Positions 23,944 to 40,966 of a stretch of 41,173 nt of DNA are shown here, piece by piece. The DNA comes from a virus: the IMG/VR virus record IMGVR_UViG_3300022673_000011, positions 1-41,173 of that record, one strand, 5' to 3'. The stretch's first letter is position 1. The number at the start of each line of letters is the position of its first letter. The position numbers and the translations under genes are program-made. The notes under the pieces were generated by a model, which was not told the origin of the DNA, searched no databases, and saw nothing but the letters and a program-made list of their open reading frames with translations.

Positions 23944-25025
23944 TCTTTATCCTTCAAAAACTCTTGTGTTAATTCGATAACCGTCATCACATCGTTATAA
24001 GACAAACTCTGATGCAATGGCAAGAGCAAAGTTTCTTGTGCTGCCTTTTCGGTATTAGGTAAACCTACATTGACACCTAAAGCCTTATGGCAAGGCCAAT
24101 ACCTAAAGGTAGTGTAGATGTCATTGTCTCTTAAATGCTTTGCCAATTCATCCCTACGTGGTGTTTGTATCCAGTAGAAGCTATGGCCGCTTGTACAACC
24201 AGGCAATATAGGCAATTCTCCTAAATGTTGCTCATAGATGCTTTTATACATTGCCCGTTTACCTAAAAAGTCTGGTAGTTTGGCGAGTTGGGATAAGCCG
24301 ATAGAGGCTGCAATGTCGTTCATTATCGAACGCCTGCCGGGATATGTGACTTCAAACTCCCACCATTTGTTATTGTCAGATGATATACCACTTTGAGAAG
24401 TCATACCGAGATACATGTAATGCTTTAATCCTTTATCTGGCAAGCTACAATAAATTATTCCCCCATCACCGCAGGTTATTGTTTTCATTGCATCAAATGA
24501 CCATATGCCGAAGTCTGCTAAAGTGCCTACTGGCTTGTTATTGTAAGTTGCACCTAAAGCGCAAGCCGCATCCTCTATTACGCATATAAACTTTTCATTT
24601 GCCATTTTAACAATAGGTTGAATATCGCAAGGGTAGCCACCGTAATGCAATAAAATAATAGCTATTGTTTTATTAGTTACCAAAGGTTCGATGTATTCAA
24701 GCGAAGTGTTAAGCGTTTTGTAATCTACATCACAAAAAACAGGCACGCCACCATTAGCTATTACAGCATTGGCAGCACCCACGAAACTAATGGAAGGTAG
24801 AATAACTTCCATTCCATCTACGTCGATATACTCCAATACTTGAAATAATGCTTCTGTTGCGCTATTTGTTGAGACTACATTGTCAGCCGGTACTCCTAAA
24901 TATTTGGCAAACTGGTATTCAAAGGTCGATACTTTGTCACCCTTGCCTATCCAATTGGATTCAAATGTTTGAGCTACTGCTAAAAGTTCCTCAAGACCAA
25001 GCAAGGGTTGAAAGATGTTAATCAT
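23940..25025 (-). CDS. DegT/DnrJ/EryC1-family sugar aminotransferase
   Basis: 361 residues from ATG 25025. An in-frame GTG 6 bases earlier lies inside the GAGGTG ribosome binding site and is less likely. Hallmarks of the PLP family are present: NSATEALFQVLEYI, the cofactor Asp in IEDAACALGA, and SFDAMKTITCGDGG with the Schiff-base Lys. It probably transfers an amino group to a 4-keto or 3-keto nucleotide sugar; perosamine-synthase-like activity would be possible. Neighbours are glycosyltransferases. Compare the other PLP enzyme at 28631-29785, which lacks the Lys. Confidence 0.9.
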   Translation of the reverse strand: MINIFQPLLGLEELLAVAQTFESNWIGKGDKVSTFEYQFAKYLGVPADNVVSTNSATEALFQVLEYIDVDGMEVILPSISFVGAANAVIANGGVPVFCDVDYKTLNTSLEYIEPLVTNKTIAIILLHYGGYPCDIQPIVKMANEKFICVIEDAACALGATYNNKPVGTLADFGIWSFDAMKTITCGDGGIIYCSLPDKGLKHYMYLGMTSQSGISSDNNKWWEFEVTYPGRRSIMNDIAASIGLSQLAKLPDFLGKRAMYKSIYEQHLGELPILPGCTSGHSFYWIQTPRRDELAKHLRDNDIYTTFRYWPCHKALGVNVGLPNTEKAAQETLLLPLHQSLSYNDVMTVIELTQEFLKDKE

Positions 25026-25191
25026 TATCACCTCTTATGTTTACACTTACCTTGTAGCCGGTTACTGGGTGATAGTCTATGGTAATACTATCTATTATGG
25101 TTTTTGTTATTTGCGAAAATAGAGTAATGGATTGCTCAATTTGCACTTCTATACCGCGTTTTTCTATTTCCAATTGTTGTTCATTTATCAT
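25018..25191 (-). CDS. Small hypothetical protein
   Basis: 57 residues from ATG 25191 with AAGGA 4 bases upstream and an ATGA overlap with the GT10 gene. An in-frame start at 25221 would overlap further and has no support. The peptide is helical at first (MINEQQLEIEKRGIEVQIEQ) then beta (SITIDYHPVTGYKVSVNIRG). No family recognised. Confidence 0.55.
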   Translation of the reverse strand: MINEQQLEIEKRGIEVQIEQSITLFSQITKTIIDSITIDYHPVTGYKVSVNIRGDND

Positions 25192-26042
25192 AGATTCCTT
25201 AAAACATTTAAGTATAGCCAATCTTCAGTTACCGCATATTCTTGAGCTAATTGATAATTGTCTTTAACCGCGTCAAGCATCGAATCATAAACAACATCCA
25301 GTTCGAGTATCCTGGCTTTAGCCAAAATTTCATTCATCTCTACTTTTGTCTCAAACCGAATTACGCCATCGGTATTAAAAAACTCGGACAGATTAGAGCA
25401 TCCCCAATAAATAGGCACTGTACCAAGTATGAAGGCGTCTAATAACCACTCTGTAAAGAGATTATCTTCAAGGCAAGTTTCGGTAATAATTGAAAACTTG
25501 TAATCTGCCAGAGTTTTGTATTTTGTTTGCCATGAATAATCTACAGGTTGACCATAGATACCGTAAAAATCTACTAGCAGGCTGCCTTGTTGGGAAGCGG
25601 CAATATCTTGCCGGATTGTATGGCCTAGTGTTGATGCTTTGTTGCCTACTAGCATTGATATGTTTTTAGTTTTTGGCTTTATGCCCCATTGTGACTGAGG
25701 AATCCAGATGCCGCCATAGGGGATAAATCTAAACTTATCATCTAAATTCAAGAAACCTTGATGATAGGTAAGGCAAGAATCCAGATGTTGCAAATTGTCT
25801 AATGCACGTTCATAGGTGTAAGGATGCAAGCAAAACGGCTCTCTTAGCCAGCCTATCTTTATGTCACTCTTGACTACCGGCATTACCTCATTGTTAATCC
25901 ATTCGTCAGTAAAAATGGTAATGCCGGAATAGGTCTTTTGGCGCTTGGCATAGGTGATGTGTTGTGAAGTTTGGTAAGCGGTAGAACAAGTATGATTACC
26001 AAAGTTACTGTCAAAGAGGTTAACCTCTAGCATTGTGGACAT
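25188..26042 (-). CDS. GT10 fucosyltransferase-like glycosyltransferase
   Basis: 284 residues. The family signature of alpha-1,3-fucosyltransferases (GT10) is in the C-terminal half: KFSIITETCLEDNLFTEWLL, then LGTVPIYWGCSNLSEFFNTD. The N-terminal part is the acceptor side (IKIGWLREPFCLHP, FRFIPYGG). GT10 enzymes use GDP-activated L-fucose or related 6-deoxyhexoses, which agrees with the GDP-fucose-synthase-like SDR at 31288-32160. It would add the final deoxysugar to a glycan or protein acceptor. Confidence 0.85.
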   Translation of the reverse strand: MSTMLEVNLFDSNFGNHTCSTAYQTSQHITYAKRQKTYSGITIFTDEWINNEVMPVVKSDIKIGWLREPFCLHPYTYERALDNLQHLDSCLTYHQGFLNLDDKFRFIPYGGIWIPQSQWGIKPKTKNISMLVGNKASTLGHTIRQDIAASQQGSLLVDFYGIYGQPVDYSWQTKYKTLADYKFSIITETCLEDNLFTEWLLDAFILGTVPIYWGCSNLSEFFNTDGVIRFETKVEMNEILAKARILELDVVYDSMLDAVKDNYQLAQEYAVTEDWLYLNVLRNL

Positions 26043-26152
26043 ATTTCCATAATCAATAAACTAATTCGCACCAAAACTGACAATATACAAAACAGTATTA
26101 TGGCTATGGTAAGCAATTGAATCTTAATCGTTGTGATGTCTTCATCGTCCAA
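26027..26152 (-). CDS. Possible 41-residue membrane peptide
   Basis: TTG at 26152 overlaps the methyltransferase stop, and the frame runs to 26027, into the start of the GT10 gene. The predicted peptide has one strong transmembrane segment (LLTIAIILFCILSVLV). There is no good ribosome binding site, so support is only the hydrophobic composition and the tight packing. Confidence 0.3.
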   Translation of the reverse strand: MDDEDITTIKIQLLTIAIILFCILSVLVRISLLIMEICPQC

Positions 26153-26888
26153 ATGAGTACCAGCTTTCCGGTGGCAAATGGTCTAACCTTTGATGCATCC
26201 ACTCTTTGCCTAAGTCCAGGTTCTGAAAGTAATTAATGTTGTCGTAATCTTCAAATTTGTTAGAGTACAAAAAGAGGTAACTTTTTGCTTTTACTGCATT
26301 TATTACCTTATCTCTTAACCCATAATCCGTTTCGCTTAACGAGTACGAGGCAAAAAGTAAGTCAACTTTTCTCTTGGTAATGCGCTTAAGCCATGTTGCC
26401 GGAGTGTTATTTTCAGATAAATACCACTGTTGCAAAAGGGCAAACTCCGGCAAGTCGTAAATGTAGTATTTGCCGGTAAAACCCAATCGCCTGGCAGCTA
26501 TAACTGATTGCCCAAAGCCGCCACCAAATTCATAAATAGTTTTTAAGTTAGATAACTTTAAGCCAGTTTCCTCTTGCCATTTGTGAAAGTTTGAAAGCTG
26601 GTGAACAAGGGATAAAGAGTCGGCATCATTAAATAATCCATCAGTACAATGTTTTGGCGCTTTAATAAGTTGTTTTATGTTTTCCGGTAGTTGCAAATAT
26701 TCTTGAAGGATAGCATTACGCCAGTGATTGTGAAGCATCGTATGGTAGACGCAAGGCCACCTCATAAATGTTGCCGGGTCATTACACTGGGCCAAGTCCC
26801 ATAGCTGCCATCGCCAATATTCCCAGTAAGGTGGTTTGAGGTCGGTTTCTGTTTGTGGTAGTTTTGCCATTTCTTTTTGTAAGTTCAT
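26142..26888 (-). CDS. Putative sugar O-methyltransferase
   Basis: 248 residues, ATG with GGAG 7 bases upstream. The SAM site is visible in LKTIYEFGGGFGQSVIAARR (EFGGGFG, motif I) and YIYDLPEF (acidic end of the second strand). The N-terminus is Trp/Tyr-rich (PPYWEYWRWQLWDL). This matches the putative sugar O-methyltransferase family found in O-antigen loci. It probably methylates the glycan made by this cassette. It overlaps the upstream HTH gene by 107 bases in another frame. Confidence 0.75.
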   Translation of the reverse strand: MNLQKEMAKLPQTETDLKPPYWEYWRWQLWDLAQCNDPATFMRWPCVYHTMLHNHWRNAILQEYLQLPENIKQLIKAPKHCTDGLFNDADSLSLVHQLSNFHKWQEETGLKLSNLKTIYEFGGGFGQSVIAARRLGFTGKYYIYDLPEFALLQQWYLSENNTPATWLKRITKRKVDLLFASYSLSETDYGLRDKVINAVKAKSYLFLYSNKFEDYDNINYFQNLDLGKEWMHQRLDHLPPESWYSFGR

Positions 26889-27195
26889 ACTTTACTCCGT
26901 ACTTTTCGTTAAACGCTTGCCAGCCTAATTGTTTGCTTTGTTGTCTAAGCAATTCATCTACTTGAGACCGTAGTATTTTAATCTGTTGTCTTAGAGCTAC
27001 TTTTTTGTTCACTCCTGATTTTCGACTTACGGTATAACCCTTGTGTTTTAACTTTTTAAGATGCTGATAAACTGCTTGATTAGTTGTGCCAAAATATAAA
27101 CTTATTTCTTTGGCCGTAGGCTTGCAATCGTTATCCGTCTGGTATTGATCAGAAAAGGCTATAATGTCCAGTTGCCGTTGGGTGAATTTAGTCAA
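26782..27195 (-). CDS. LexA-like winged helix DNA-binding protein
   Basis: 137 residues from TTG 27195 (overlaps previous stop by 8 bases). Residues 1-58 follow the LexA N-terminal pattern: FTQRQLDIIAFSDQY, then PTAKEISLYFGTTNQAVYQH, and KKLKHKGY. The LexA peptidase domain is absent. A basic coiled segment follows (QQIKILRSQVDELLRQQSKQ). The last ~35 residues are read from the start of the methyltransferase gene in another frame. Possible local regulator of the sugar cassette. Confidence 0.7.
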   Translation of the reverse strand: MTKFTQRQLDIIAFSDQYQTDNDCKPTAKEISLYFGTTNQAVYQHLKKLKHKGYTVSRKSGVNKKVALRQQIKILRSQVDELLRQQSKQLGWQAFNEKYGVKYELTKRNGKTTTNRNRPQTTLLGILAMAAMGLGPV

Positions 27196-27841
27196 TTTCT
27201 TGCCACCAATCTAAGTTGTCCACATAGCCCTGTTTTAGCATAAATTCGCCAAGCACTTCGTTAAATGCCCTACCTTGTTCTTTTGTAAAATGATTGCGCC
27301 AATCACCTACTTTGCCTAATCTCATAAAGTGGTCATTGTTAATTGCTTGTCGCATGTTGTCGAATGATTGCCGGTCAATTGCTGCTTGTATTTTTGCTTC
27401 TGGTACTTCAACTCCTAAATCTCTGAATAGTCTTGATAGTTCCCCTACCGGCTTAGAATGTAGATATTCATATCTGGTATTCAAGGTGCTTAACCAGCTA
27501 TTGATATAGTCCTCGTATTTCCATTCGCCGCCCACTTCGTGCATCGTTGGTGTAGCGAGTGCTCGCAAGGCAGAATCAAAGTCGAAATGATTGCGATAGT
27601 ACATGGCGCTTATCATAACGTCTCTTGGGTCACGCTGTAACATAATGACTTGTTTATCGTCAAATTGATTGACATTAGGCTGATGCACCTTGCGAATGAT
27701 GCCTTTATCGCCAGCTAGTCCCCAATAGCCTTGTGCTCCTGCATTAGGATCATCGTGTTGGGTAAGGTCTAAAACATCAGATAGAAGATGAACAAACCAA
27801 GTAATGCCGGACTTGGGATAAGCGGTTATAATTAGCTCCAT
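27188..27841 (-). CDS. PAPS-dependent sulfotransferase
   Basis: 217 residues from ATG 27841; an ATG at 27859 in the same frame is possible. The protein starts with the 5'-phosphosulfate-binding loop (MELIITAYPKSGITWFVHLL). The 3'-phosphate-binding part is present (RDPRDVMISAMYYRNHF), as is the late motif GKVGDWRNHFTKE. These are the key elements of the sulfotransferase family. It would transfer sulfate from PAPS to a sugar hydroxyl. In a glycan cassette this predicts sulfated surface sugar. A PP-loop protein of the PAPS-reductase type lies upstream at 30519. Confidence 0.88.
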   Translation of the reverse strand: MELIITAYPKSGITWFVHLLSDVLDLTQHDDPNAGAQGYWGLAGDKGIIRKVHQPNVNQFDDKQVIMLQRDPRDVMISAMYYRNHFDFDSALRALATPTMHEVGGEWKYEDYINSWLSTLNTRYEYLHSKPVGELSRLFRDLGVEVPEAKIQAAIDRQSFDNMRQAINNDHFMRLGKVGDWRNHFTKEQGRAFNEVLGEFMLKQGYVDNLDWWQEID

Positions 27842-27959
27842 TAAAACTCTTTTCTGCATTGTAAACAGTAAGTTCTATGCCTGCCATGCACAATCGTTAT
27901 ATGATAGCAACATAGCTGAGAGATAAAGGTTAGTATTTTATTGACCGGCCATATTTTAG

Positions 27960-28559
27960 TCATACTCTAAATGCTATTAAACTCTCTACTCTTTTGATTA
28001 GTTTGTAGTTGCCAAGTAATAGTTCATCTACCGCCCTATCAACTCCAGCCCAAGACCTGGGATGAGGTTTGTCGGGTTGATAATCTTCTTCATGTTCGTA
28101 TAGCTCATGTTTGCGGTAATCGTGTATTGCAATAATGCCATTTATTTTTACACAAGGCAACCAGGCCAGAATGTCATTTGAGCATCCTTCATAAGAATGT
28201 TCACCATCAATAAAGACCATATCTATATCTATATCAGATAATTGCCATTCTACTCCTATTTTGAAACTATCATCTTGAATATGCTCCACTCTCTCATTCC
28301 ATAATCCGGCTTCTTTTAATACCTTTTCCTCGGCTGCCAAACACCCCAATGGATTATCATCTCTTTGTACATCTATGGTTATCAGGTGCATATCAGGCCG
28401 CGATTCCATAAATGCCAAGCCGCTAGTGCCTGAGCCTGCACCAATGTTAACGACTGTTGGATTATCGAGCAATGACCTTGCAAGCTCTTTAAGAAATGGC
28501 ACTTCATCAGGAAATAGATACTTAAAAGCTTGCTGTAGTGTTTCGCTACTATGCGCCAT
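27960..28559 (-). CDS. SAM methyltransferase (Methyltransf_24 type)
   Basis: 199 residues, ATG with AAAGGA about 9 bases upstream. Motif I VVNIGAGSGTSGLAF, a segment LITIDVQRDD after strand 2, and the family-specific FIDGEHSYEGCSNDILAWLP with IIAIHDYRKHE. This family includes sugar-modifying methyltransferases (macrocin and cephalosporin-hydroxylase-like proteins). His and Asp in the last two motifs may bind metal. It probably acts on the cassette's glycan. The ~118 bases between it and the sulfotransferase start contain no clear signal. Confidence 0.85.
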   Translation of the reverse strand: MAHSSETLQQAFKYLFPDEVPFLKELARSLLDNPTVVNIGAGSGTSGLAFMESRPDMHLITIDVQRDDNPLGCLAAEEKVLKEAGLWNERVEHIQDDSFKIGVEWQLSDIDIDMVFIDGEHSYEGCSNDILAWLPCVKINGIIAIHDYRKHELYEHEEDYQPDKPHPRSWAGVDRAVDELLLGNYKLIKRVESLIAFRV

Positions 28560-28638
28560 ATATTCTTATCCTTTGTATGTGATAATCTTCAATTGTCAGT
28601 AGCACAACAAGTAACACTAGCCAGTCTTGTTTAGTCAT
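28552..28638 (-). CDS. Possible 28-residue hydrophobic peptide
   Basis: ATG at 28638 inside the end of the PLP enzyme gene, reading MTKQDWLVLLVVLLTIEDYH and ending over the methyltransferase start. One short hydrophobic stretch. No ribosome binding site seen. Similar in kind to the membrane peptide at 26027-26152. Confidence 0.2.
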
Positions 28639-29785
28639 AATATTTTTTGAACACTTCTGTAACATACTCTAATTCTTCACTTGATAGGTTCTGGTGACAA
28701 CCTATATAGAAACCATTATCATCTATCCATTGCGCTACCGGATAGTCATTTGGATTCCATAACCCCTTATAAACCGGCTGATTGATGAGAGGTAACATTC
28801 TGCGAGTTTGTATGCCATACTCGTTAAGATGCTTTGTAAGGTTATCTCTTTGATTATCTTCAAGGCACACTATAGGATACATCATAAAAGCGTGTTGAGT
28901 ATTGGGTCTTATTGCCGGTAGCTGCAAGGGTAAATGCTTGAGGCTTTCCGTCAGGTATCTGGCATTTGCTTGACGGTTGTCTAGCATCGTTTGGTAATCG
29001 CTTAACTGAGCTAAACCTATTGCTGCCTCAAGTTCTGTTATGCGAAAACTATGCCCTACTCGCTCAAAGGCAAAATCACGGTGTACCTTTTGAGGAGTAA
29101 AATCGCCGGTAGATGATAGGTCACTGTATACCAGGCCGTGATTGCACAATGAGCGCATTATCTTTGCGTATAGTGCATTGTTGGTTAATGAGATGCCACC
29201 TACGCCAGTTGTCACCAGGTGGGCCATATAAGTTGAAAAACAAGAAATATCACTCCAACTGCCTACAGGATGAATGTAATGGTCAACGAACATGGACTCG
29301 CAACTATCTTCAATGATTTTGATGGATAGCTCAGAGAATTTATTAAGCTCTTTCCATATTTGCACCATGTTACATGGTTGCCCGAAAGTATGAACGGGTA
29401 TGATAGCTTTTGTCTTATCAGTTATAGCATCTGGTATTAGGTTGCAATCAATGCCGTAATAGTCTTTTTCAACATCGACTAAGACCGGCTTAAGTCCCGA
29501 TTGCAGGACGATATTAACGGTAGCTACAAATGTTAAAGCCGGTACAAGTACCTCATCACCTTCATTCCAACCATGCACCTCTTTAAGAGTTTGGATAGCC
29601 ACGAGTAAAGAGCTAGTGCCAGAATTAGACAAAACGCCAAATTTGCAATCGTGTAGTAAAGCGAAGTCTTGCTCAAATTGTTTGGAGAGTGGGCCATAGG
29701 ATAGTTGTCCTGATTCTATCACCTGATTGATTAGGGCATATGTTTTGGGTAGTGGTTTGAAAGTACCTGTTTCTATTCTAAACAT
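28631..29785 (-). CDS. DegT-fold PLP enzyme with His in place of catalytic Lys (ColD-like 3-dehydratase)
   Basis: 384 residues from ATG 29785, which has AAAGGA 7 bases upstream; ATG 29791 is too close to it. The family fold is clear: SNSGTSSLLVAIQTL, and IIEDSCESMFV with the cofactor Asp. At the Schiff-base position the sequence reads CFSTYMAHLVTTGVGG, so His occupies the usual Lys position. GDP-4-keto-6-deoxymannose 3-dehydratase (ColD) has the same His replacement and uses PMP and glutamate to remove the 3-hydroxyl. A role in making a 3,6-dideoxysugar is therefore plausible, in line with the GDP-fucose-synthase-like SDR and GT10 enzyme. Confidence 0.85.
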   Translation of the reverse strand: MFRIETGTFKPLPKTYALINQVIESGQLSYGPLSKQFEQDFALLHDCKFGVLSNSGTSSLLVAIQTLKEVHGWNEGDEVLVPALTFVATVNIVLQSGLKPVLVDVEKDYYGIDCNLIPDAITDKTKAIIPVHTFGQPCNMVQIWKELNKFSELSIKIIEDSCESMFVDHYIHPVGSWSDISCFSTYMAHLVTTGVGGISLTNNALYAKIMRSLCNHGLVYSDLSSTGDFTPQKVHRDFAFERVGHSFRITELEAAIGLAQLSDYQTMLDNRQANARYLTESLKHLPLQLPAIRPNTQHAFMMYPIVCLEDNQRDNLTKHLNEYGIQTRRMLPLINQPVYKGLWNPNDYPVAQWIDDNGFYIGCHQNLSSEELEYVTEVFKKYYD

Positions 29786-30506
29786 ACCCATGTCCTTTTA
29801 ATTCGTCTCTATCTGCTTTGCTTAACGCCGGTAGCCCGACGTTCGGGTCTTGATTCCATTTGCCGCCCTGGATTACATTTGCGTGTTTCATAGGCGATTG
29901 ACGAGTACCTAAGACTAAAAGCTCGTCGCCCGCTTGGGCCAATCGTCTAGTGCCGTTTAGCTCTATTTGTTGGGCTGTTTCGTTTGGTACTAGAAATCGT
30001 CTTAGTAAATCTTTACGCCACATCCCGCCCCATAAAGAGAGGTGATAGGCTGATTGATAGTCACTCTTGATAAGGTCGAGATAGCCTGCCGTGTCATAAG
30101 TACTGTTATTGTAAGCATACCGACCAGGGTCAGCGTTTAACCGGTCTGAACAAAGGTCAAACTTTATAACATTCTGGAATTGATGCATATAATCGTAAAT
30201 GATATGGATACCCTGAACGTCTAATTGCCGGGTAAGCCAGTAATCATCTAACATCAGAATAAAAACATTATCTGCTACTTCGTCCAGGATTTTGATTAAA
30301 GCGTCTGACCAATTATGAATAGGATAATCCGATTCTTTACCGAGTACAATACGTTCTGGATCATAGCCTAGATTGTAGTCTACGAGTTGCTCGAAACCGC
30401 AAACTGTTACCCGGCCCAGGTGCATGGCATATTTTCTCCACTGGTAAAAGAAGCCTCGCAGGGTATGAAGTTGTTTATCAGAGGTTATGACGATTGTTTG
30501 AACCAT
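29778..30506 (-). CDS. Glycosyltransferase-like protein (GT-A type)
   Basis: 242 residues, ATG preceded by AAAGG. The core phrase VFILMLDDYWLTRQLD gives an Asp-Asp motif at the end of a strand, as in GT-A nucleotide-sugar sites. The N-terminus (MVQTIVITSDKQLHTLRGFF) is like phage and bacterial proteins annotated as putative glycosyltransferases. Later SLWGGMWRKDLLRRF resembles acceptor-side segments. Substrate unknown. Overlaps the PLP enzyme gene slightly. Confidence 0.75.
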   Translation of the reverse strand: MVQTIVITSDKQLHTLRGFFYQWRKYAMHLGRVTVCGFEQLVDYNLGYDPERIVLGKESDYPIHNWSDALIKILDEVADNVFILMLDDYWLTRQLDVQGIHIIYDYMHQFQNVIKFDLCSDRLNADPGRYAYNNSTYDTAGYLDLIKSDYQSAYHLSLWGGMWRKDLLRRFLVPNETAQQIELNGTRRLAQAGDELLVLGTRQSPMKHANVIQGGKWNQDPNVGLPALSKADRDELKGHGYV

Positions 30507-30518
30507 TTACCTTTGTCC

Positions 30519-31307
30519 CTACATAAACATACATATCTGACATGCACCAAAATCGTCATTGTTTTCATCCTTCTTTACCCTGCCCCAATATGATCTTATC
30601 TTTTGGGCAGTTGCCAGTGATTTCTCGTAATATTCTGGATAGTATAGTTTCACATCAGCATATTGTCCTTTTACTTCACCGTCAGGCTTGAGATAGCCTG
30701 ACATATTTTTACACACTAAACAGTTATTATGAGTAAAAACCCTTTTATATTTCTTGCCGCGCCATTCTTTAATGTCATAGATAGCTGGATGCCATCCTAT
30801 TTCACGATCAACCAAGGAAAAGCAATCTTCATCTGATAAATGAGCGATAGGATGATATTTATCTTTTGCCTTTTTTAACTGCTTAGATATTCTGTTTTGC
30901 TCTGTTCTGACATACCCGATTAAGTCCAGGTCTATGTTGTGTTCTTCTGTGTATTCCAGCATAGGGATTATTTTTAATTGTTCGCTGCAAGGTGATAGAA
31001 TGGGATGAGGTATCATATTTTCATTCTTGAAAAACTTTAAGGCACTACCCCATTTTACTTTCCATCGAATGCAATCAAAATGACTTGCTGCGTATCTGAT
31101 ACAATCCTTCATAAAAGAAAAAGTATCTGGACTGTGCTCTTTAAGTTGCACAGCAAATAAATGTACTTCTTTCGGTTGTAGCTCTTTGGGATACTCACTA
31201 GCAAGATAGCAAATCAAAGCCGCCGAGTTGATACCACCTGATATGCCTATTAAAACTTTTAGTTTTGAAAAGTCTTTGTGTTCTGGTTTAAGAATTTGAG
31301 CTTGCAT
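30519..31307 (-). CDS. PP-loop ATP pyrophosphatase (PAPS reductase-like)
   Basis: 262 residues. The N-terminal PP-loop reads LIGISGGINSAALICYLA (SGGxNS). The C-terminal part has Cys pairs CLVCKNM and CQICMFM, which could hold a metal or act in thiol chemistry. The length and the pattern of HCL fit the phosphoadenosine phosphosulfate reductase family, whose members in phages include thiolation and adenylation enzymes (for example DndC-like). Here it is between the SDR and a glycosyltransferase, so a role in the sugar cassette is possible. It cannot be assumed to reduce PAPS. Confidence 0.75.
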   Translation of the reverse strand: MQAQILKPEHKDFSKLKVLIGISGGINSAALICYLASEYPKELQPKEVHLFAVQLKEHSPDTFSFMKDCIRYAASHFDCIRWKVKWGSALKFFKNENMIPHPILSPCSEQLKIIPMLEYTEEHNIDLDLIGYVRTEQNRISKQLKKAKDKYHPIAHLSDEDCFSLVDREIGWHPAIYDIKEWRGKKYKRVFTHNNCLVCKNMSGYLKPDGEVKGQYADVKLYYPEYYEKSLATAQKIRSYWGRVKKDENNDDFGACQICMFM

Positions 31308-32160
31308 TGAACCATTCCCACGTCTCTTTCAGTCCATCATAAAATTTTACTTTAGCTTCCCATCCTAATGACTTAGCTAAGGAATGGTCATACCATCGCT
31401 TGGCTTGTCCTATCGGTCTACTACCATTGTATTCATTATCTCTACCGCTAAACTGCTTTAGATAATCTACCACCTGATGAATGGTTACTGTGTAATCGTT
31501 GCAGATATTTAGCGGATTCCCGTAGTCAAGACCGGTAATCCACGAAATAGCGTTAGCCGCATCCGTAATATATAAAAAGTCGCGTGTTTGGCTACCATCC
31601 CCCCATATCTCTACAGGTTGCGAGGTATCAAGAAACTTACGAATCAAGTCCGGTATTGCATGGTTTGAGTTGTCGCCTGGGCCATAGAGGTTGGCAAGAA
31701 TAGGATATTCAAAGTCCATACCGTATTGCTTTTTGACACTTTGCAACTGGATAAGGGCTAGTCGCTTGGATAGGCCATAGGATAGATTGGACTTTTCCGG
31801 TGGCCCATTAAGCAAATGATGCTCTTTAGTTGGTATTGGAGGGTATTCAGGGTAAGCGCAAACGGAGGAAACAAAGATAAATCTTTTACAACCATGCAAT
31901 GCTGCATAGTTTATCAACTGTGTATTCATTATTACGTTGTTGTAGAAAATTGAAGCAGGATTTTGAATGTTGTACTCAAGGCCGCCTACATCAGCCGCTA
32001 AATGGATTATGGTATCTGATTCATTTAGCGTGTGAGCAAATAAGGCTTGAATATGTGGCATCTCGCGTAAGTCATAAGCGCGACGGGTATGGTGGTAAGC
32101 ATCAGAAAATAGTTGGGAAACATAAGAGCCTAAAAAGCCGTTAGAGCCGGTTATTATCAT
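31288..32160 (-). CDS. GDP-L-fucose synthase-like SDR (NAD-dependent epimerase/reductase)
   Basis: 290 residues. The Rossmann loop GSNGFLGSYV, the family phrase HLAADVGGLEYNIQNPASIF, SSVCAYP with the catalytic Ser, and the YGLSKR (YxxxK) motif are all visible. These are typical of GDP-4-keto-6-deoxymannose epimerase-reductase (GDP-fucose synthase) and of ColC in colitose synthesis. The upstream RHH gene overlaps by ATGA. The enzyme acting before it, GDP-mannose 4,6-dehydratase, is not in the window and would come from host or from elsewhere in the genome. Confidence 0.85.
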   Translation of the reverse strand: MIITGSNGFLGSYVSQLFSDAYHHTRRAYDLREMPHIQALFAHTLNESDTIIHLAADVGGLEYNIQNPASIFYNNVIMNTQLINYAALHGCKRFIFVSSVCAYPEYPPIPTKEHHLLNGPPEKSNLSYGLSKRLALIQLQSVKKQYGMDFEYPILANLYGPGDNSNHAIPDLIRKFLDTSQPVEIWGDGSQTRDFLYITDAANAISWITGLDYGNPLNICNDYTVTIHQVVDYLKQFSGRDNEYNGSRPIGQAKRWYDHSLAKSLGWEAKVKFYDGLKETWEWFNASSNS

Positions 32161-32479: not shown

Positions 32480-33994
32480 TTACAACCAGACTGCGTTTTT
32501 GCTAGGTGCGGAACGAAGTGAAACCCCGCCATCTTGCCAGTACGGGCTAGTCGGGTCAAATTCACGAAGGTGCTGAAGCGGGCTGTATAGCACGTTGTCG
32601 ATACGTCCCGCCAGTTGCGGTGTTCTCAATACGATGCGTTGTTCACTTTTGACGCTGAGTTTAACACACCATTTGTTATCCTCAAACGCCCAAGAGAATA
32701 CACCGTCATCTGTCCAGAAACGTTGCATATCACGAAGTAACCGTAATTCCGCAGCTTGCATCCGGCGATAGTCTTTATGCTGCCGGTAGAGTACCGGAAA
32801 GCTACTGTTAATAGTCTTGGGCAGTACAAAGATGCTTGATGCGTAACTGCCAGCCGGAACATTAGCATCTGTGATGTTGGTTGCTTCTGTAATGCCAGGG
32901 TCAGTCACTACATCATAACGTTTGCCGTTAACTATGAGGTATTTACCGTTACGCATTGCATCACGTTGCTGTACCATATCACCGCCATCTACTACCAGGC
33001 GACTGTTGCCGGTTGCCGCTGCCACCTTATCCGTGTTGTAGATGATGGGCCATACAGCGGTTAGTTCCCAAAATAACTGGGGGCGCATTGCTAAACAAAA
33101 CTCTACAGGGTCAAGACCTGTATCTTCTGCCAGAGTTTCAAGAAAGTAGCAGACCATTGACAGGTAAGTAACAATCGTATTTCCTGAACCACTACCTACT
33201 GCCACATAATTGAAGTCTTTTACATCACTGTCCAAAGCAGAACAGGCCGTGCCGGTATCAGCGTCAGTTTGACCGGTAGCTACTTGATTCTCAAGGCCGG
33301 GGAATTCCTTATACCCTCCACCGGCATTGTTGTTTGCCGGTGAACCTTGCCAGTTGTGAACCAAGAGTTTGCGATAGAGGCGTTCACCTGCGCCCACCAT
33401 TTGAGAAGCAGTTAAAACATTGACTACTTGGGCCGGGTCTAAACCACCGGGCATCATGCCGTTGCCTTCCATGCCAAGCCGGAAGCCGTGAAGCATTAAG
33501 TCAGTGAAATCGCCACGATTGATCTTTAATCCTACTTCGTCAAAGTCGATAGTTTCCGTGTCACGATGCACCCGACCAAATTGAGCCGTGAGGTTACAAG
33601 CCTTAATGTAGCCGGTGGGAGCATTATCGCAAGGGTTAGCCGGTTCGCTGCCGATGTCATCAGAGATTCCGGTTAACGCTCCGTAACGTGGGTCTTCTTC
33701 AATAGACGGAAACAATGGTATCTCGGCTGCAATACCGCGCGGGTGAACGTGAGCCGAGATAATGTCCCGATCAAGACCAAGCGTTGAAAAAGTACCAGTC
33801 AAGCCGTGGATTTTGTTAGCAGTCAGGTTTGAAGCCGCTGCTTTTACCACGTCCATTAGCATTTCGTTAGCCTTTTCATCCCACTCTTGGTTATTGTGAG
33901 TATGGCCTATTTCTTTTGCTGCCATTAAAGCCAGCATTTGGCTATTTTGTTGAACGAGTGCACCTATCTGTTCAGAGGTAATTGGGTTAGTCAT
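32480..33994 (-). CDS. Major capsid protein
   Basis: 504 residues, ATG with AGGAG 8 bases upstream. It follows the protease/scaffold gene and precedes a strong terminator. The sequence is typical of a HK97-fold capsid protein of large phages: HVHPRGIAAEIPLFPSIEED, a segment on the E-loop side rich in Gly, and YASSIFVLPKTINSSFPVLY and MQRFWTDDGVFSWAFEDNKW near the end. The N-terminal helical part is of about 60 residues; no cleavage site is obvious. It is likely assembled with the product of 33987-35309. Confidence 0.85.
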   Translation of the reverse strand: MTNPITSEQIGALVQQNSQMLALMAAKEIGHTHNNQEWDEKANEMLMDVVKAAASNLTANKIHGLTGTFSTLGLDRDIISAHVHPRGIAAEIPLFPSIEEDPRYGALTGISDDIGSEPANPCDNAPTGYIKACNLTAQFGRVHRDTETIDFDEVGLKINRGDFTDLMLHGFRLGMEGNGMMPGGLDPAQVVNVLTASQMVGAGERLYRKLLVHNWQGSPANNNAGGGYKEFPGLENQVATGQTDADTGTACSALDSDVKDFNYVAVGSGSGNTIVTYLSMVCYFLETLAEDTGLDPVEFCLAMRPQLFWELTAVWPIIYNTDKVAAATGNSRLVVDGGDMVQQRDAMRNGKYLIVNGKRYDVVTDPGITEATNITDANVPAGSYASSIFVLPKTINSSFPVLYRQHKDYRRMQAAELRLLRDMQRFWTDDGVFSWAFEDNKWCVKLSVKSEQRIVLRTPQLAGRIDNVLYSPLQHLREFDPTSPYWQDGGVSLRSAPSKNAVWL

Positions 33995-35309
33995 TTTCTA
34001 CTCCTGCGGGCTGTAGCCATTGGCTAAAAAATAAGCCTTGCTCTTCTTTTTGAACCGGTGTTTCTTTTGGCCCTGACTTGGCTAAAGTTGACCGGCCATC
34101 TACCTGTTTACCCTGAGAAAAGAGACTTTCAACTTCTTTTTGCGCTAAATACTCCAAAGAGTTTTTAGGTAAGTCGGCTGCTTTTTTAGCAATCTTTTCT
34201 TCATCGGTTGCCGATAGTTCCTTGAGTGCAATTTCTAGGGATTCGATACGCTCCGCTAAAGGTGTTATCACCGTAGAGATTGCCTTAACGATTGCCTCAG
34301 GAGTAAGTTCCGGTTCTTGGGTTGTCTCTTCTTTCTTTTCGAGTCCGGCTTCTTCTGCCTGAGTTGCCTTGTCCTTTACTGACGTTTCAATTTGCTCAAT
34401 GTCAGCATCGGACATTCCCACTTGTTTCAGAAATTCCTTTTTGTCTTTTGGAATTGCCACCTGTTCACCTTCCTTTTTATTAAGTACTTCAAAGCTTGTT
34501 AATTTGTTAGCCGCTGCCGATGCTGGCAAAGGCGATATTTCCCTTGTGATGTGTCGAGTAATGATTGACTTGTCTACTGTGTCGCGCTGGATATGCGTTT
34601 TGGGCATGCCGTGCGAGGTGAGTAACTCGTCATTGTATGCTGCCAATCCCTTAGCTACCTGCTCCTTGCCCTTATCTACATAACCGGAGGCGATTGCAAA
34701 ACCATCATCTGTATAGTGATGCCAATCTGCTTGACCGAATTGAGAGCCGGGAATGTGCCAAAGCCATAATTCGGGATAAGGCACCTCACCGGCATTGACA
34801 GCTTTGTTAAATTGTTCGTGGCTTGCTTTTGAGATTATCTCAGGTGGGTTGTCATTATCACGATAGTTGTTTGAGTAGATGGCTAACCAGCGCCACTGGT
34901 CAGTTTCTTTATTGTACCAGATTGAAAAAGAATCTTGCCTGCTTTCTTCTTTGGTAGCTACCTTCATTACCTTGTCTTTAAGTTTCGCAAGGCTATTAGT
35001 GAGGGGCTGCCACTTTTCTTTTGTGTCAGATTGCGACAAAGCGTCTTGAGCAAAAGAGATAAACTCATTAGATAAGATAGCAAGTGCCGCATCTTTGTCC
35101 TCTATATCAGAACGGTTAATGATTCGTTTTACCATATGCGGAAATTCATAAGCTAAATCTTGCACTTTGTAAGCTGCCTCTTTGGCCTCACGTTCTGATT
35201 GCATTTCAGAAAAGGAAATAGGGCCGGAGTCCATATCATACATCTTGTTATGGTCATCCTTGGATTCTTTTTCTTCTTGCTTTTCTACTTCTGTTATTTC
35301 ATCTGGCAT
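33987..35309 (-). CDS. Capsid protease/scaffold-type protein
   Basis: 440 residues, ATG with AAGG 7 bases upstream. The middle part (LWLWHIPGSQFGQADWHHYT, FAIASGYVDKGKEQVAKGLA, SHGMPKTHIQRD, ITREISPLPASAAANKLTSF) has the layout of XkdF-like prohead proteases with fused scaffold. The N- and C-terminal thirds are acidic, helical and low-complexity, as in scaffolds (EETTQEPELTPEAIVKAIST). It starts after an attenuator-like leader. Catalytic residues cannot be named with confidence; His in LSHGMP and Ser later are candidates. Confidence 0.75.
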   Translation of the reverse strand: MPDEITEVEKQEEKESKDDHNKMYDMDSGPISFSEMQSEREAKEAAYKVQDLAYEFPHMVKRIINRSDIEDKDAALAILSNEFISFAQDALSQSDTKEKWQPLTNSLAKLKDKVMKVATKEESRQDSFSIWYNKETDQWRWLAIYSNNYRDNDNPPEIISKASHEQFNKAVNAGEVPYPELWLWHIPGSQFGQADWHHYTDDGFAIASGYVDKGKEQVAKGLAAYNDELLTSHGMPKTHIQRDTVDKSIITRHITREISPLPASAAANKLTSFEVLNKKEGEQVAIPKDKKEFLKQVGMSDADIEQIETSVKDKATQAEEAGLEKKEETTQEPELTPEAIVKAISTVITPLAERIESLEIALKELSATDEEKIAKKAADLPKNSLEYLAQKEVESLFSQGKQVDGRSTLAKSGPKETPVQKEEQGLFFSQWLQPAGVEND

Positions 35310-35876: not shown

Positions 35877-36383
35877 CTATTTATAGATGTTCCGCAAGCC
35901 TCTATTCTTGGCTTTAATCATTGCTATTGTGAATGGCTTTGTTCTACGTTTTTGTAAAGTGGATGTCCACTTCCTGGCTTTGATTCCCGACCTTACGCCA
36001 ATGTTGCGATTGGACATTGCCCGTCTACCGGCTATCAGTACCCTGCCGCTGCCTGTCCTACTTTTGAACGACCCCGGCCTTGTTTTGCTTCGCCAATTGT
36101 TAGACATTACTGCCCAGCGTCGCTTTGTGCCTTCGTCAAGCCATCTGAATTTATTAACTGCCTTTGTGCTGCCTGTCGGGCCGGTAATGACTACTATATC
36201 ACCACCTGAAACCTCAGCCAGAGATTCAAACTTAGGTTTTGCACCCGTCCAAGTTGATACGGTTTGCTTCAATTCCCTTTCAACTATCTTGCCTTGTTTT
36301 TTGGCTTCAAGCATTAACCTTATCTTGACTTGAGGAATGTTCATCTTTTTGGCTTTGATTGCTTTTATTTGAAAGACTGTCAT
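35877..36383 (-). CDS. Head completion / minor virion protein (gp10-like)
   Basis: 168 residues, basic. The phrase KFRWLDEGTKRRWAVMSNNW followed by SKTRPGSFKSRTGSGRVLIA and GVRSGIKARKWTSTLQ is familiar from phage proteins encoded near the portal, generally of the HK97 gp10-like type (neck or tail completion). Function by position is head completion. It overlaps the upstream zinc protein by 77 bases in another frame. Confidence 0.65.
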   Translation of the reverse strand: MTVFQIKAIKAKKMNIPQVKIRLMLEAKKQGKIVERELKQTVSTWTGAKPKFESLAEVSGGDIVVITGPTGSTKAVNKFRWLDEGTKRRWAVMSNNWRSKTRPGSFKSRTGSGRVLIAGRRAMSNRNIGVRSGIKARKWTSTLQKRRTKPFTIAMIKAKNRGLRNIYK

Positions 36384-36696
36384 ATTTCTTTTTCATCTTC
36401 CTGTTGTATCTCGTGAACAACGTTTTATACTTGCGCCTTTCGTGCCGGTTAACAAGCGCCTTTTGTAGCCCTTCCAGTTCTCTATTGAGGTAATAGCTTC
36501 TAGTCCAAGTATTGCAATTGGGGCATAAGACTCCTACTTCTTTTGCCCCTTCTGCTATTTCTCGTTCTGTATTTTTTAGCTCGATGGATTGAAATGATAG
36601 TTTGCTGAGAGGTGTTACCCTGCTGCATTTGGTACATTTGACTAGCTGTTGACCTTTTTCTAGCTTACTACTTTGTTTACTAATCCTTTTTTCCAT
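36307..36696 (-). CDS. Zinc-ribbon protein next to portal
   Basis: 129 residues, ATG with AAAGGA upstream. Two Cys pairs, KCTKCSRVT (about residues 20-24) and LCPNCNTWTRS (about 57-60), form a zinc ribbon. A helical basic part follows (GLQKALVNRHERRKYKTLFT) and the end is polar and Ser/Lys/Gln-rich. It is directly after the portal gene. Possible head or packaging accessory protein. Role unknown. Confidence 0.65.
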   Translation of the reverse strand: MEKRISKQSSKLEKGQQLVKCTKCSRVTPLSKLSFQSIELKNTEREIAEGAKEVGVLCPNCNTWTRSYYLNRELEGLQKALVNRHERRKYKTLFTRYNRKMKKKYDSLSNKSNQSQKDEHSSSQDKVNA

Positions 36697-36708: not shown

Positions 36709-39477
36709 TTATAATGTAGGCAATCTTCCAGGTGTTGCCCGTTTAGTTGTCTCTACCAAACTACAACCACACTTAAAGCCATTACATTCCAGCTTGCCGG
36801 GTCTTGTATCTCTAGGGTAGATGTCAAGTTCTTTCCATCTGCTGGCCCTCATTACTCTGCCTGCTAATCTTGAGCAAGTGCTACAATGTTTCTTACCGGC
36901 TGATACTTGCCATTCGAGTTTCTGATCCTGGCAGGCCATTGTCTTAGCTTGGTACATTACCTCATTGTACCGGTTGGTCCATAAGTCTAGCCGGTATTGC
37001 AAGTCACTAAAAGATTTCGTGTTAGTATCTGTTGCTAATGCAGTACCCGCTACCAATGCGGCATCAATTAAATGCTGTTTATCACGTTTAGATTCTATGA
37101 ATTTCCCTAAATCATAGATATAGCTCTTAGCATTGGCTATCTGGTCATTGAGTGCAAATTGCTCTTGCGATGTTCGTTCCGATGGTTCAATACCGCAACC
37201 TCTTGCGCCTTCTACCCAGGCTTGATTATAGCCTCTGTCAATGGTGCTACCCATTGCAGCGATGAAGTCGATTAGGTCAAATTCTTGATTGTATAAAGCC
37301 CTTGCATTGGCATTGATTGAAGCGGTAAAAGAGGAGAGACTTTTAACCCTTTGGCCTAACGGGATGTTAACTATTGTCCTATCTGTTGTGCTAAATGCTA
37401 CACTGTCAACAGTAACCCTTTGACCATTCAGTAAGTTACTATCAAGATACTTTTGACCTGTCCCCTTTTTCAGATAAGCAATAGTCAAATGAGGGTTGTA
37501 CTCTCCATTATAAAGATCATCCGAGCCGGTATCTGCTATAGCATCATACAACCGCCTTAACTCATTACTCAGTACAATGTCAACCTTTAGTACATCGTTA
37601 TCATTTTCAAACAGGGACAGTCCGGCAAACTCTAATTGTAAATCGTCAAAGTCTTTAACCGCTTCGGCTATAGCCATTGGGTCATTGTGAGTAATGCCGT
37701 ACTTTAAGGTAATGTGCGAATCGTGTTCTATTTCTTCGACATCTTCCCGGTCAATCTGGCTGGCTATTTCAGCGCATAATCTAGTGACCCATACTGGCAT
37801 ATTGAATTGAGTAGAAGCATACTTCTTTTCTTTATTGGCCTGACTAACTCCTATAGCCCAATCTATACCTGTTGTACCTCCCCATCCTAACCACGCTACA
37901 TAGCCAGCATCACGCCAAGGTTCACTCTTGAACTTAGGGTCAACTTCTGCATTTTGTCGATGTCTATTAAAGGCTGCCATACGCTTAGCAATGTCTAACG
38001 AGATAGGCTTGCCGGATGCTAATTGCCGCGCCCTTGTCCATCCTACTTGAGTCATGCCTCGTATCTCATTGGGGTGTTCCTTGCGCCATCTTAAGACTTT
38101 GCGAGCGTTGCCCTGCGCTGCTTTTGGCGGCTGGTAGGTTTTGGCCTTTACCTCTTCTTCAACTTCAATAATCTCAGGCTCTATTTCCGGTTGCGCTTGT
38201 AACGCTTCAAATTGTTCTTGTGTTAAGTCTCCATCTCTTACCATATTTTCACGTTCAATAGCCACATCAGTTACACCGGACTCCAGATTGGTTTTGCGTG
38301 TAGTCGCTCGCTTGTCTCTGTTCTCGGCTTGCGCCTTGTCTTGACTATCGTCTTGGTAGTCAAACTTAAACATAAGATAGTCGGGCAAGAAAAACTCATC
38401 AAGCAAACGTTCAATTTCTTTCATCAAAAAGCCCGGCCCTTTGCCCTTCATTTTTTCGTGTTGCACTTGGGCATCGGCTCTTGTTTGACCACTTACCCCT
38501 AAAGCAAAGGCTAGTTGTCTGCTATCTACTCCGAAGGCCATTGCAAGTACTGCCATATCTAGCTGAGTGCCGGTTAGCTCATCAAAGCCGTCAGGCAATG
38601 AAGCGAAGTCAATCAGGTTTAGAGTGCCTTTACTTGCAAAGATTGGAATCTTGCCGTATCTCGCAAACCCCTGAGCATCTTGCAAATAAGCATATTTTTG
38701 CAATGTACCATCTAAGGCAGCAACTTCTCGATTACCGCCATCTTGGATATGCAAAAGGGCGCGAGTTGGCCTGCTGCCTAATTTCTCTTGTTTGTACCTC
38801 GCCATATCAATTAGGTTTTGCACGGCATTGATACACCGTGAAACAGAACAAAATCCCACGCCTAACATATCGACACTGGCATCTGGTTGTTGGGTAATGT
38901 TAATCAGTCGCGTCTTATGTATCTTGTAACGCTTTCCACCTCTATCTGTAAATATAACCGGCCACTCGCTGCTTGATGTACGCATACAATGTGTAGAATC
39001 AAGATGCACTAATTTGGTGGGCATCCCCGTTAGGGCATCATTGCCCGGCCCCTCAATAGCCATAAAGCCGCCGTTGTCGGTAGACAATACATCTTGAATA
39101 AAAGGAGCAAAAGCCGAAGTGAAGCCGGTCTTAATCTTGCTACTCCGGCTCTCTGTCTTACGGTCTATAATGTCCTGATACATTTCAGCCTGTTTAATAT
39201 GACTTTTTATTCTGGCATTACGAGGCAGTACTTGATGGGGAATGGTCATTATCATCTCAACAATAGTTGCTACCGTGCCCGATAAATGATCACTGTTTTT
39301 AACTAATTGCTTTAAGGCGCTGTCTCTGCCTTGTGACCACCAAGGCGGTATTGTCTCGCCTGCACCGGCCAGATAGTTAAAAAGGGAGATTGAACCACCG
39401 TATACATCTTCGTTGGCATCGTCTTGAAATATCTCTTTGATTTTTGTATCTTCGGGTTGAAAGCTATTTGTAGTCAT
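36709..39477 (-). CDS. Portal protein fused to 2H phosphoesterase and MuF-like domains
   Basis: 922 residues, nearly twice a normal portal. Residues 1 to about 430 match a portal of the DUF935/anti-CBASS-like type (LVHLDSTHCMR, INITQQPDASVDMLGVGFCS, GVSGQTRADAQVQHEKMKGK). Residues about 456-543 form a small domain found in phage head proteins (RKVLRWRKEHPNEIRGMTQV, GWTRARQLASGKPIS, YVAWLGWGGTTGIDWA). Residues about 560-715 form a 2H phosphoesterase with both motifs, HIT at 588-590 and HLT at 663-665. The C-terminus (about 725-922) is MuF-like with Cys at 865, 868, 898, 903 and 905 (KHCSTCSRLAGRVMR). A frame break is not seen, so this is one real fused protein. Confidence 0.85.
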   Translation of the reverse strand: MTTNSFQPEDTKIKEIFQDDANEDVYGGSISLFNYLAGAGETIPPWWSQGRDSALKQLVKNSDHLSGTVATIVEMIMTIPHQVLPRNARIKSHIKQAEMYQDIIDRKTESRSSKIKTGFTSAFAPFIQDVLSTDNGGFMAIEGPGNDALTGMPTKLVHLDSTHCMRTSSSEWPVIFTDRGGKRYKIHKTRLINITQQPDASVDMLGVGFCSVSRCINAVQNLIDMARYKQEKLGSRPTRALLHIQDGGNREVAALDGTLQKYAYLQDAQGFARYGKIPIFASKGTLNLIDFASLPDGFDELTGTQLDMAVLAMAFGVDSRQLAFALGVSGQTRADAQVQHEKMKGKGPGFLMKEIERLLDEFFLPDYLMFKFDYQDDSQDKAQAENRDKRATTRKTNLESGVTDVAIERENMVRDGDLTQEQFEALQAQPEIEPEIIEVEEEVKAKTYQPPKAAQGNARKVLRWRKEHPNEIRGMTQVGWTRARQLASGKPISLDIAKRMAAFNRHRQNAEVDPKFKSEPWRDAGYVAWLGWGGTTGIDWAIGVSQANKEKKYASTQFNMPVWVTRLCAEIASQIDREDVEEIEHDSHITLKYGITHNDPMAIAEAVKDFDDLQLEFAGLSLFENDNDVLKVDIVLSNELRRLYDAIADTGSDDLYNGEYNPHLTIAYLKKGTGQKYLDSNLLNGQRVTVDSVAFSTTDRTIVNIPLGQRVKSLSSFTASINANARALYNQEFDLIDFIAAMGSTIDRGYNQAWVEGARGCGIEPSERTSQEQFALNDQIANAKSYIYDLGKFIESKRDKQHLIDAALVAGTALATDTNTKSFSDLQYRLDLWTNRYNEVMYQAKTMACQDQKLEWQVSAGKKHCSTCSRLAGRVMRASRWKELDIYPRDTRPGKLECNGFKCGCSLVETTKRATPGRLPTL

Positions 39478-39478
39478 C

Positions 39479-40966
39479 TTAATTACCTGCCGGTGTATTC
39501 TCTGTTAGTTCCCACATTGACCAAAATGCAGCGTCGTGCAAATCAAAAGGCTTGCGTAACGGGAATCTATTTAAGGCATCTTCTAATGCCTGATGCGTGC
39601 CTATCACATGCCTGAATCGACCCTTGCTATATTCTGCAAGTTGTAATTGGCCTCTATGTTTTTTGCTGCCTATTGAGCCTGCCCTGCTGGATACAAAGTC
39701 GGGTTGTACAGCCTCTGAATCAAGTAACCCATCTTCAATCAATTGTTCCCAGTTGGCATTGAATGACTCCTGCCATAAATCGCCGCCCTGGTCAGTCTCA
39801 AACAATAGCACATCAGCCCTAAACTCAACAGCTTTAACAATGGCTTCGACAACCGCCTCTTGAGGCGAGGCGTTTTCTTCCCAACTATAAAGTCGGTAGA
39901 TAACATCATCCACGCCTAAACCATCTATCTGTATGGCTTGTTTATCACCCGTCTCGGTTACAGCCGGATCACAAGCACACACAACACTTATTAACTCCGG
40001 TACTTCGGTCACATGCTGAAATTTAATACCAGCATTGTGATACATGCCACCTTCATTAAGGTTAACTTCGTGCTGGCATTCTATACGAAAAGTTAATACC
40101 CCCACATCAGCCGCCAAATCCTGACAAGCTTTTAATGATTGATGCTCCCAAGTTGGTTGACCATCTACAATAACCTGTCTGCCATTCTCATCTAAATCAT
40201 AGACAGGATTTTCGAGTGCCTTAATCGGCCCGATGACTTTACGATTATTGAACAAGTCCAGCTTGTTGTTAATAGCCTGGCTCATAATGCCATTTTCGTG
40301 TATCAAGTTCTGGATAAACATTATAGCCGTATTACTTGTTCCAGCCGGCACAATGTCAAACTTTATGGTATCTACTTTTTTCTTAACGGCATCCGGCGTA
40401 TCGGTACGCGAATCTATATCACTAAGGATAATCAAATCTGGCCTATACTGGTCTAGCCTTAATGACCTAACGTGAGCATCTAATCCTAATCCCACTACAT
40501 TAAATCCATTGGCGCAGCGTAACATATCTACCCGCCAGCCTTTGGACGTGCCATACTTTGACACTTGCCGGGATGCCATTTTAGGGTAGTATTGCTCCAT
40601 TGTGCTATCTTCGAGCATGCTGCTAATAGTCTGTACTGACTTATTAGCGAGGGCTTGGGTAGCGCAAACATACAAAGCAAACTTGCGTTTACCTAGTGCG
40701 CCTAATCTAGCTGTTGCTCCCTGGGCTGAGGCATCTTTCCCACCACCTCTGGCAAGGATAAAAAATAGCACCTCTGGCCTAAGGTCTGATATAGATTCTA
40801 CGTGTTGCCAGAAGTCTAAATGATGAGAAGCAAAAGAAGAAGTGAAAAGGGAGGGGAAGAGGGTGGTTAACCATTCATTATAAGGTAGATGGTCTAAACG
40901 ATTAGGAGTAGTTATTTGCTTTAGCCGATTTCTAACTACTTGCTTAACTATTGGTGCTATTGTCAT
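39479..40966 (-). CDS. Terminase large subunit
   Basis: 495 residues. The ATPase domain has a P-loop-like ARGGGKDASAQ (Walker A, with Asp in place of the usual Ser/Thr after Lys) and PDLIILSDIDSRTDTP (Walker B region, Ser where an acidic residue is usual). The RNase H-like nuclease domain shows VVCACDPAVTETGD, VLLFETDQGGDLW and the final Asp in FDLHDAAFW. It packages DNA through the portal encoded downstream. Its start overlaps the preceding gene by 23 bases. Confidence 0.9.
   Translation of the reverse strand: MTIAPIVKQVVRNRLKQITTPNRLDHLPYNEWLTTLFPSLFTSSFASHHLDFWQHVESISDLRPEVLFFILARGGGKDASAQGATARLGALGKRKFALYVCATQALANKSVQTISSMLEDSTMEQYYPKMASRQVSKYGTSKGWRVDMLRCANGFNVVGLGLDAHVRSLRLDQYRPDLIILSDIDSRTDTPDAVKKKVDTIKFDIVPAGTSNTAIMFIQNLIHENGIMSQAINNKLDLFNNRKVIGPIKALENPVYDLDENGRQVIVDGQPTWEHQSLKACQDLAADVGVLTFRIECQHEVNLNEGGMYHNAGIKFQHVTEVPELISVVCACDPAVTETGDKQAIQIDGLGVDDVIYRLYSWEENASPQEAVVEAIVKAVEFRADVLLFETDQGGDLWQESFNANWEQLIEDGLLDSEAVQPDFVSSRAGSIGSKKHRGQLQLAEYSKGRFRHVIGTHQALEDALNRFPLRKPFDLHDAAFWSMWELTENTPAGN

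Follow-up and report, generated by a model that had tools for sequence, protein, structure and literature searches.

The window analysed here, a 41,173-nucleotide stretch of viral DNA from a 41-kb IMG/VR virus record that is possibly a fragment, carries on its minus strand (36709-39477) one gene whose 922-amino-acid product (P0001) appears to be the portal of a tailed phage, extended on its C-terminal side by a module with a WGG motif, an intact 2H phosphoesterase domain and a MuF-like end. In our judgement the 2H domain of this protein is probably a head-carried enzyme which cleaves or opens a phosphodiester beside a ribose hydroxyl, in RNA or in an immune nucleotide. The protein is an unusually complete further example of an already predicted class of 2H-portal fusions; a preliminary description of the window had treated the architecture as new, and this does not hold, since joinings of 2H domains to portals or MuF are described both in a 2017 survey (PMC5512222) and in a 2022 survey (PMC9503650).

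The gene is a single open reading frame from ATG to stop, and the region is open on the minus strand only. Its start lies one base past the stop of the terminase large subunit gene, with a GGCAGG stretch a few bases upstream. From the N-terminus, the product is divided into a portal-like part (aa 1-430; 38188-39477), the module with the WGG motif (aa 444-541; 37855-38148), the 2H domain (aa 553-708; 37354-37821) and a helical, cysteine-bearing MuF-like end (aa 735-922; 36712-37275). This is the order of domains read in the preliminary description, and that reading is right, the last domain being recognised by its motif and its place. No Shine-Dalgarno-like stretch was seen by eye before M560, where an internal start might have given a free 2H protein. 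Neither the whole protein nor its portal part has close relatives in viral contigs, the portal and MuF parts found no relatives in isolated phages even at an E-value of 10, and PADLOC returned no match. The full-length AlphaFold model (pLDDT 57.6) is too poor for use in its portal and MuF parts; its significant PDB matches are the same set of 2H proteins found with the model of the isolated domain, with no portal among them.

The assignment of residues ~553-708 to the 2H superfamily is a firm prediction, from both sequence and modelled structure. Residues 587-700 match Pfam PF13563 (2'-5' RNA ligase superfamily) at 4e-10, with 40.4 bits against a cut-off of 27. The domain was aligned with 61 non-redundant relatives from viral contigs, taken from among the matches listed, and the AlphaFold model built from these 62 rows (pLDDT 93, pTM 0.85) superposes on known 2H enzymes. 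The PDB gives 45 matches to it at E<=1e-3, all of them either 2H enzymes (bacterial and archaeal proteins of the CPDase/LigT type, plant CPDase, Usb1, the poxvirus cGAMP phosphodiesterase and Acb1) or AKAP central domains, which have a related 2H-like fold. A fold unlike 2H had been named beforehand as the result that would overturn the assignment; the predicted fold is 2H.

Both HxT motifs reported in the preliminary description, 75 residues apart, are present and intact: H588-T590 (37708-37716) and H663-T665 (37483-37491). All four catalytic residues are kept in 62/62 rows of the alignment. The relatives were fetched by patterns that included parts of these motifs, and rows fetched by one pattern only were therefore checked separately: H588 and T590 are present in all 17 rows fetched by the second motif alone, and H663 and T665 in all 31 fetched by the first. 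Since the motifs are kept in recruits to which the search was blind, the active site is under real constraint and not a product of the search. The domain of the window does depart from its clade at several well-conserved non-catalytic sites (among them E582 for G, S587 for P, A618 for G and Y656 for T). These altered residues, together with an adjoining WGG module that moves between head proteins and has no known function, would suit a 2H domain with no enzymatic role, either as a piece of the portal crown or as a remnant of module shuffling. Such a structural role is nevertheless improbable, given the invariant HxT pair, motif-blind recruits included, and the fusion of the same domain to many different portals, beside other enzymes (see below).

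The portal part alone has no significant family match (PHROG_146 at 0.008; none in Pfam), and its identity was approached through the neighbouring terminase. The large subunit gene (39479-40966, minus strand) matches PHROG_38 at 1.1e-33 and is 38-46% identical to its relatives in loci L092-L099, which were used to find proteins in the portal position. In L096 a 532-aa protein adjoining the terminase, itself without a 2H domain, is 27% identical to the portal part of the window over 290 aa (8e-27). The portal and MuF of L092 were ruled out as homologues for want of any BLAST similarity, so L096 and L094 were used instead. When compared by hhalign, the profile of the portal group aligned over 321 columns with portals of the HK97 type (83% probability, E 8.5e-6); it found no match among Mu-type or Phage_portal_3 portals, or in the PDB. 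Position beside the terminase, the homologue in L096 and the profile match together support the reading of aa ~50-430 as a divergent portal that is only weakly recognised by curated family models.

The gene at 32480-33994 (minus strand) probably encodes the major capsid protein, judged by its position and by a faint local similarity to the protein in the capsid position of L096 (E 0.001 in a single comparison); it has no family match, and a search for kin of this capsid gene found none. The product of 33987-35309 (minus strand), possibly a head scaffold or maturation protease, has no family or database match, and we infer from its position and from a string of motifs seen by eye (LWH..G / SHGM / EISPLP..AAN) that it could be the head protease. 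Directly past the fusion gene, 36307-36696 (minus strand) encodes a small protein with a zinc-ribbon-like pair of CxxC motifs (below Pfam cut-offs; PHROG_1315 at 6.4e-5). The capsid-position gene is separated from the tail genes by a block of genes for sugar and small-molecule modification (20938-32160, minus strand). One product of this block, 1001 aa long, has several glycosyltransferase domains together with an HHH domain; the block also encodes two DegT aminotransferases, an NAD epimerase, and fucosyltransferase-like, sulfotransferase, methyltransferase and PAPS-reductase-like proteins.

The module with the WGG motif matches PHROG_2859 (aa 424-554, 1.5e-14). In bacterial and archaeal viruses it recurs within portal, protease and capsid genes and also as a gene of its own; it is found, among others, in the portal-MuF fusion of the haloarchaeal virus HRTV-28, in the portal of HATV-3 and in a protein of HGTV-1 annotated as a prohead protease. 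The copy in the window is 56-60% identical to proteins of very large phages. The C-terminal part (aa 735-922) is tentatively called MuF-like from its place and from the motif W..C-x2-C...C-x-C (C865, C868, C903 and C905); it has no Pfam or PHROG match, and its hhalign score of 19.8 is hardly above the best of 100 shuffles (19.25). A separate small Cys-rich ORF of L096, further past the portal gene, resembles it (E 0.013). L096 thus has one gene for the portal and another for the tail piece, whereas a single gene of the window encodes both, separated by the WGG module and the 2H domain.

At least 557 relatives of this 2H clade were confirmed in IMG/VR by profile search, and 10 loci were found in cellular genomes, in a collection where about 85,000 bacterial and archaeal species are represented by one genome apiece. 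The clade is therefore common in viral contigs and rare in cellular genomes as judged from sequence searches, the contrast being rough because the two scans used partly different patterns. Among the 61 non-redundant viral relatives, drawn from the matches listed, the domain lies in an ORF of at most 260 aa in 17 cases and of more than 650 aa in 42, and 32 of the latter exceed 1300 aa. When 14 of the larger ORFs were scanned for protein families, the domain proved to lie in nine or more further portal proteins, drawn from at least four portal families, as well as in giant phage proteins. The portals are of Mu type (L034, L056 and L080), lambda type (L025), HK97 type (PF04860; L081, L076 and L024) and Phage_portal_3 type (L090 and L018). 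A MuF match is also seen in three of these fusions (L056, L076 and, below cut-off, L081), and four carry a second predicted enzyme: an ADP-ribosyltransferase (ART) in L080, a zeta-toxin-like kinase in L090, a PI3/4-kinase-like domain in L024 (5282-9685) and a pterin-4a-carbinolamine dehydratase domain in L018 (2741-7879). Outside the portals, the same type of 2H domain is fused in a 635-kb uncultured phage (L002, 4950-6266) to an apparent DnaQ-like exonuclease domain, recognised by eye, and an ORF of L059 (1-3900) combines it with a polyvalent-type ART, a GNAT domain and domains of the poly(A) polymerase/tRNA nucleotidyltransferase kind.

In a tree of the 62 domains the portal-fused rows are scattered, requiring seven changes for the seven labelled rows, no fewer than with shuffled labels. 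Repeated capture of the clade by different portals is therefore the simplest reading of these sequences. Deep nodes of the tree have low support, and the placement of the window itself is unsure, its long branch being paired with a second long one. A bolder view would be that this is a phage-specific 2H clade, distinct from both Acb1 and LigT, which unrelated portals captured repeatedly because the enzyme is needed in the head at DNA entry, to destroy an immune nucleotide produced as soon as infection begins and before phage gene expression; we put this forward as speculation that is unlikely to be correct.

The substrate was approached by comparison with Acb1. With the 62-row profile, the nearest solved chain is a phosphodiesterase of Burkholderia phage BCSR5 filed as Acb1 (9q2g, 5e-9), followed by FBB1 Acb1 (7t26, 3e-4), both ahead of YjcG and plant CPDase. 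The published mapping of T4 Acb1 (PMC9117128) gives a catalytic tetrad of H44, T46, H113 and T115, base-binding residues Y12, W74, F107 and W147, and an adenine-reading E141. The tetrad is kept in the window. The W74 position is also aromatic (F623, with F in 61/62 rows), and the F107 position is H, Y or F in 57/62 rows of the clade; these are the grounds on which the domain might be an anti-CBASS enzyme proper, cutting 3'3'-cGAMP, cAAA and similar molecules in the manner of Acb1 right after DNA entry. In the window itself, however, the F107 position is N657, and E141 and W147 fall on T701 and L707 and so have no counterparts; Y12 could not be aligned, and these C-terminal columns come from one alignment in which they are unsure. 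W74 is thus the only base-binding position kept as an aromatic. Furthermore, the Pfam Acb1 model gives the window 14.3 bits against a cut-off of 27, which one relative (L069) does pass, CPDase, Usb1 and LigT score better than Acb1 by fold, and no C-terminal lid has been demonstrated. By the Pfam cut-off and the base contacts, the window domain is not a member of the Acb1 family at the sequence level, although it could plausibly work like Acb1 from outside that family. Taken together, an anti-CBASS enzyme proper seems a doubtful identification.

These results bear directly on the suggestion in the preliminary description that the domain is an injected anti-immune enzyme. In essence this is the published proposal, with which it agrees (PMC5512222, PMC9503650), and the profile does place proteins of the Acb1 type nearest; what falls away is Acb1 identity, as the fold does not single out Acb1 and most base contacts are not kept. 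For the same reasons, the cutting of cyclic oligonucleotides by this domain is not supported.

The fold comparison leans instead towards enzymes of RNA ends or tRNA, which would open 2',3'-cyclic phosphates or trim in the manner of Usb1, to repair RNA that host defences have cut or to attack host RNA. An RNA 2',3'-CPDase (5h7e, 1.2e-6), Usb1 and LigT are the best fold matches, at 9-17% identity, and the TIGR02258 CPDase model matches weakly (4.3e-5, under its cut-off). RNase activity is also one of the two functions that Iyer et al. propose for 2H domains fused to portals or MuF in phage polyvalent proteins (Fig. 5B of PMC5512222), the other being degradation of the nucleotides of counter-invader systems; these authors also remark that the 2H versions concerned are not paired with RNA ligases. 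Against a role at RNA ends, the sequence profile is nearer Acb1, repair enzymes need no location in the head, and neither an RNA ligase nor a kinase turned up in the scanned proteins of the window, which are part of the ORFs of an incomplete genome. We regard it as possible, if on the unlikely side, and as slightly better placed than the anti-CBASS reading.

On the favoured, broader reading, a head-carried 2H enzyme acts on RNA or on an immune nucleotide. With its two histidines and without a metal, it would cleave or open a phosphodiester beside a ribose hydroxyl, and the substrate would belong to the class of RNA or of host immune nucleotides (a cyclic oligonucleotide or a 2'-5' oligoadenylate). 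The C-terminal side of a portal faces the inside of the capsid, and the appended modules should therefore lie within the head, where the enzyme would be carried and from where it would be used at the start of infection. The predicted architecture, with an effector enzyme fused to a virion head domain, is that of a polyvalent or head-injected effector protein. Because a portal ring is left in the emptied head, it is not obvious how an enzyme fused to it would be delivered; to act in the host cell, the enzyme would have to be released by cleavage, probably proteolytic, in or after the linkers. The enzyme may be injected; packaging and injection are suggested for such fusions in the 2022 survey (PMC9503650). 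The literature searched contained no experimental test of head-borne 2H enzymes. If they do hit immune nucleotides, counter-defence would reside in the particle instead of being made after entry, and would pre-empt CBASS or type III CRISPR signalling. To the class predicted in 2017, the present analysis adds an unusually complete member, nine or more other portal fusions spread over at least four families, and conservation that argues, from sequence, for a kept activity.

Among known systems, Acb1 (T4 57B, FBB1 Acb1 and 9q2g of BCSR5) shares the 2H fold, the HxT/HxT tetrad and a phage origin with the window domain; T4 Acb1 is a free small protein whereas the window domain is part of a fusion, and unlike Acb1 the clade carries, past the second HxT, a K-x-G-x-G-x-K-Y stretch of its own. 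LigT and the RNA 2',3'-cyclic phosphodiesterases, plant AppR>p CPDase and Usb1 share the fold and the catalytic tetrad, but the window falls under the cut-offs of these families. Portal and MuF are likewise joined in one protein in gp9 of HRTV-28 (Pormufvirus), which has the WGG module too, and in Microbacterium phages of clusters EA/EB (PMC7302621), with no 2H domain reported in either; gp22 of Microbacterium phage OneinaGillian has MuF with a weak, below-cut-off 2H match, and there the portal is separate. The fusions of PMC5512222 and PMC9503650 show the same joining of 2H to portal or MuF, and for them, too, packaging, injection and a substrate of nucleotides or RNA are proposed; to these the window protein adds the PHROG_2859 module and a very divergent portal outside the database families.
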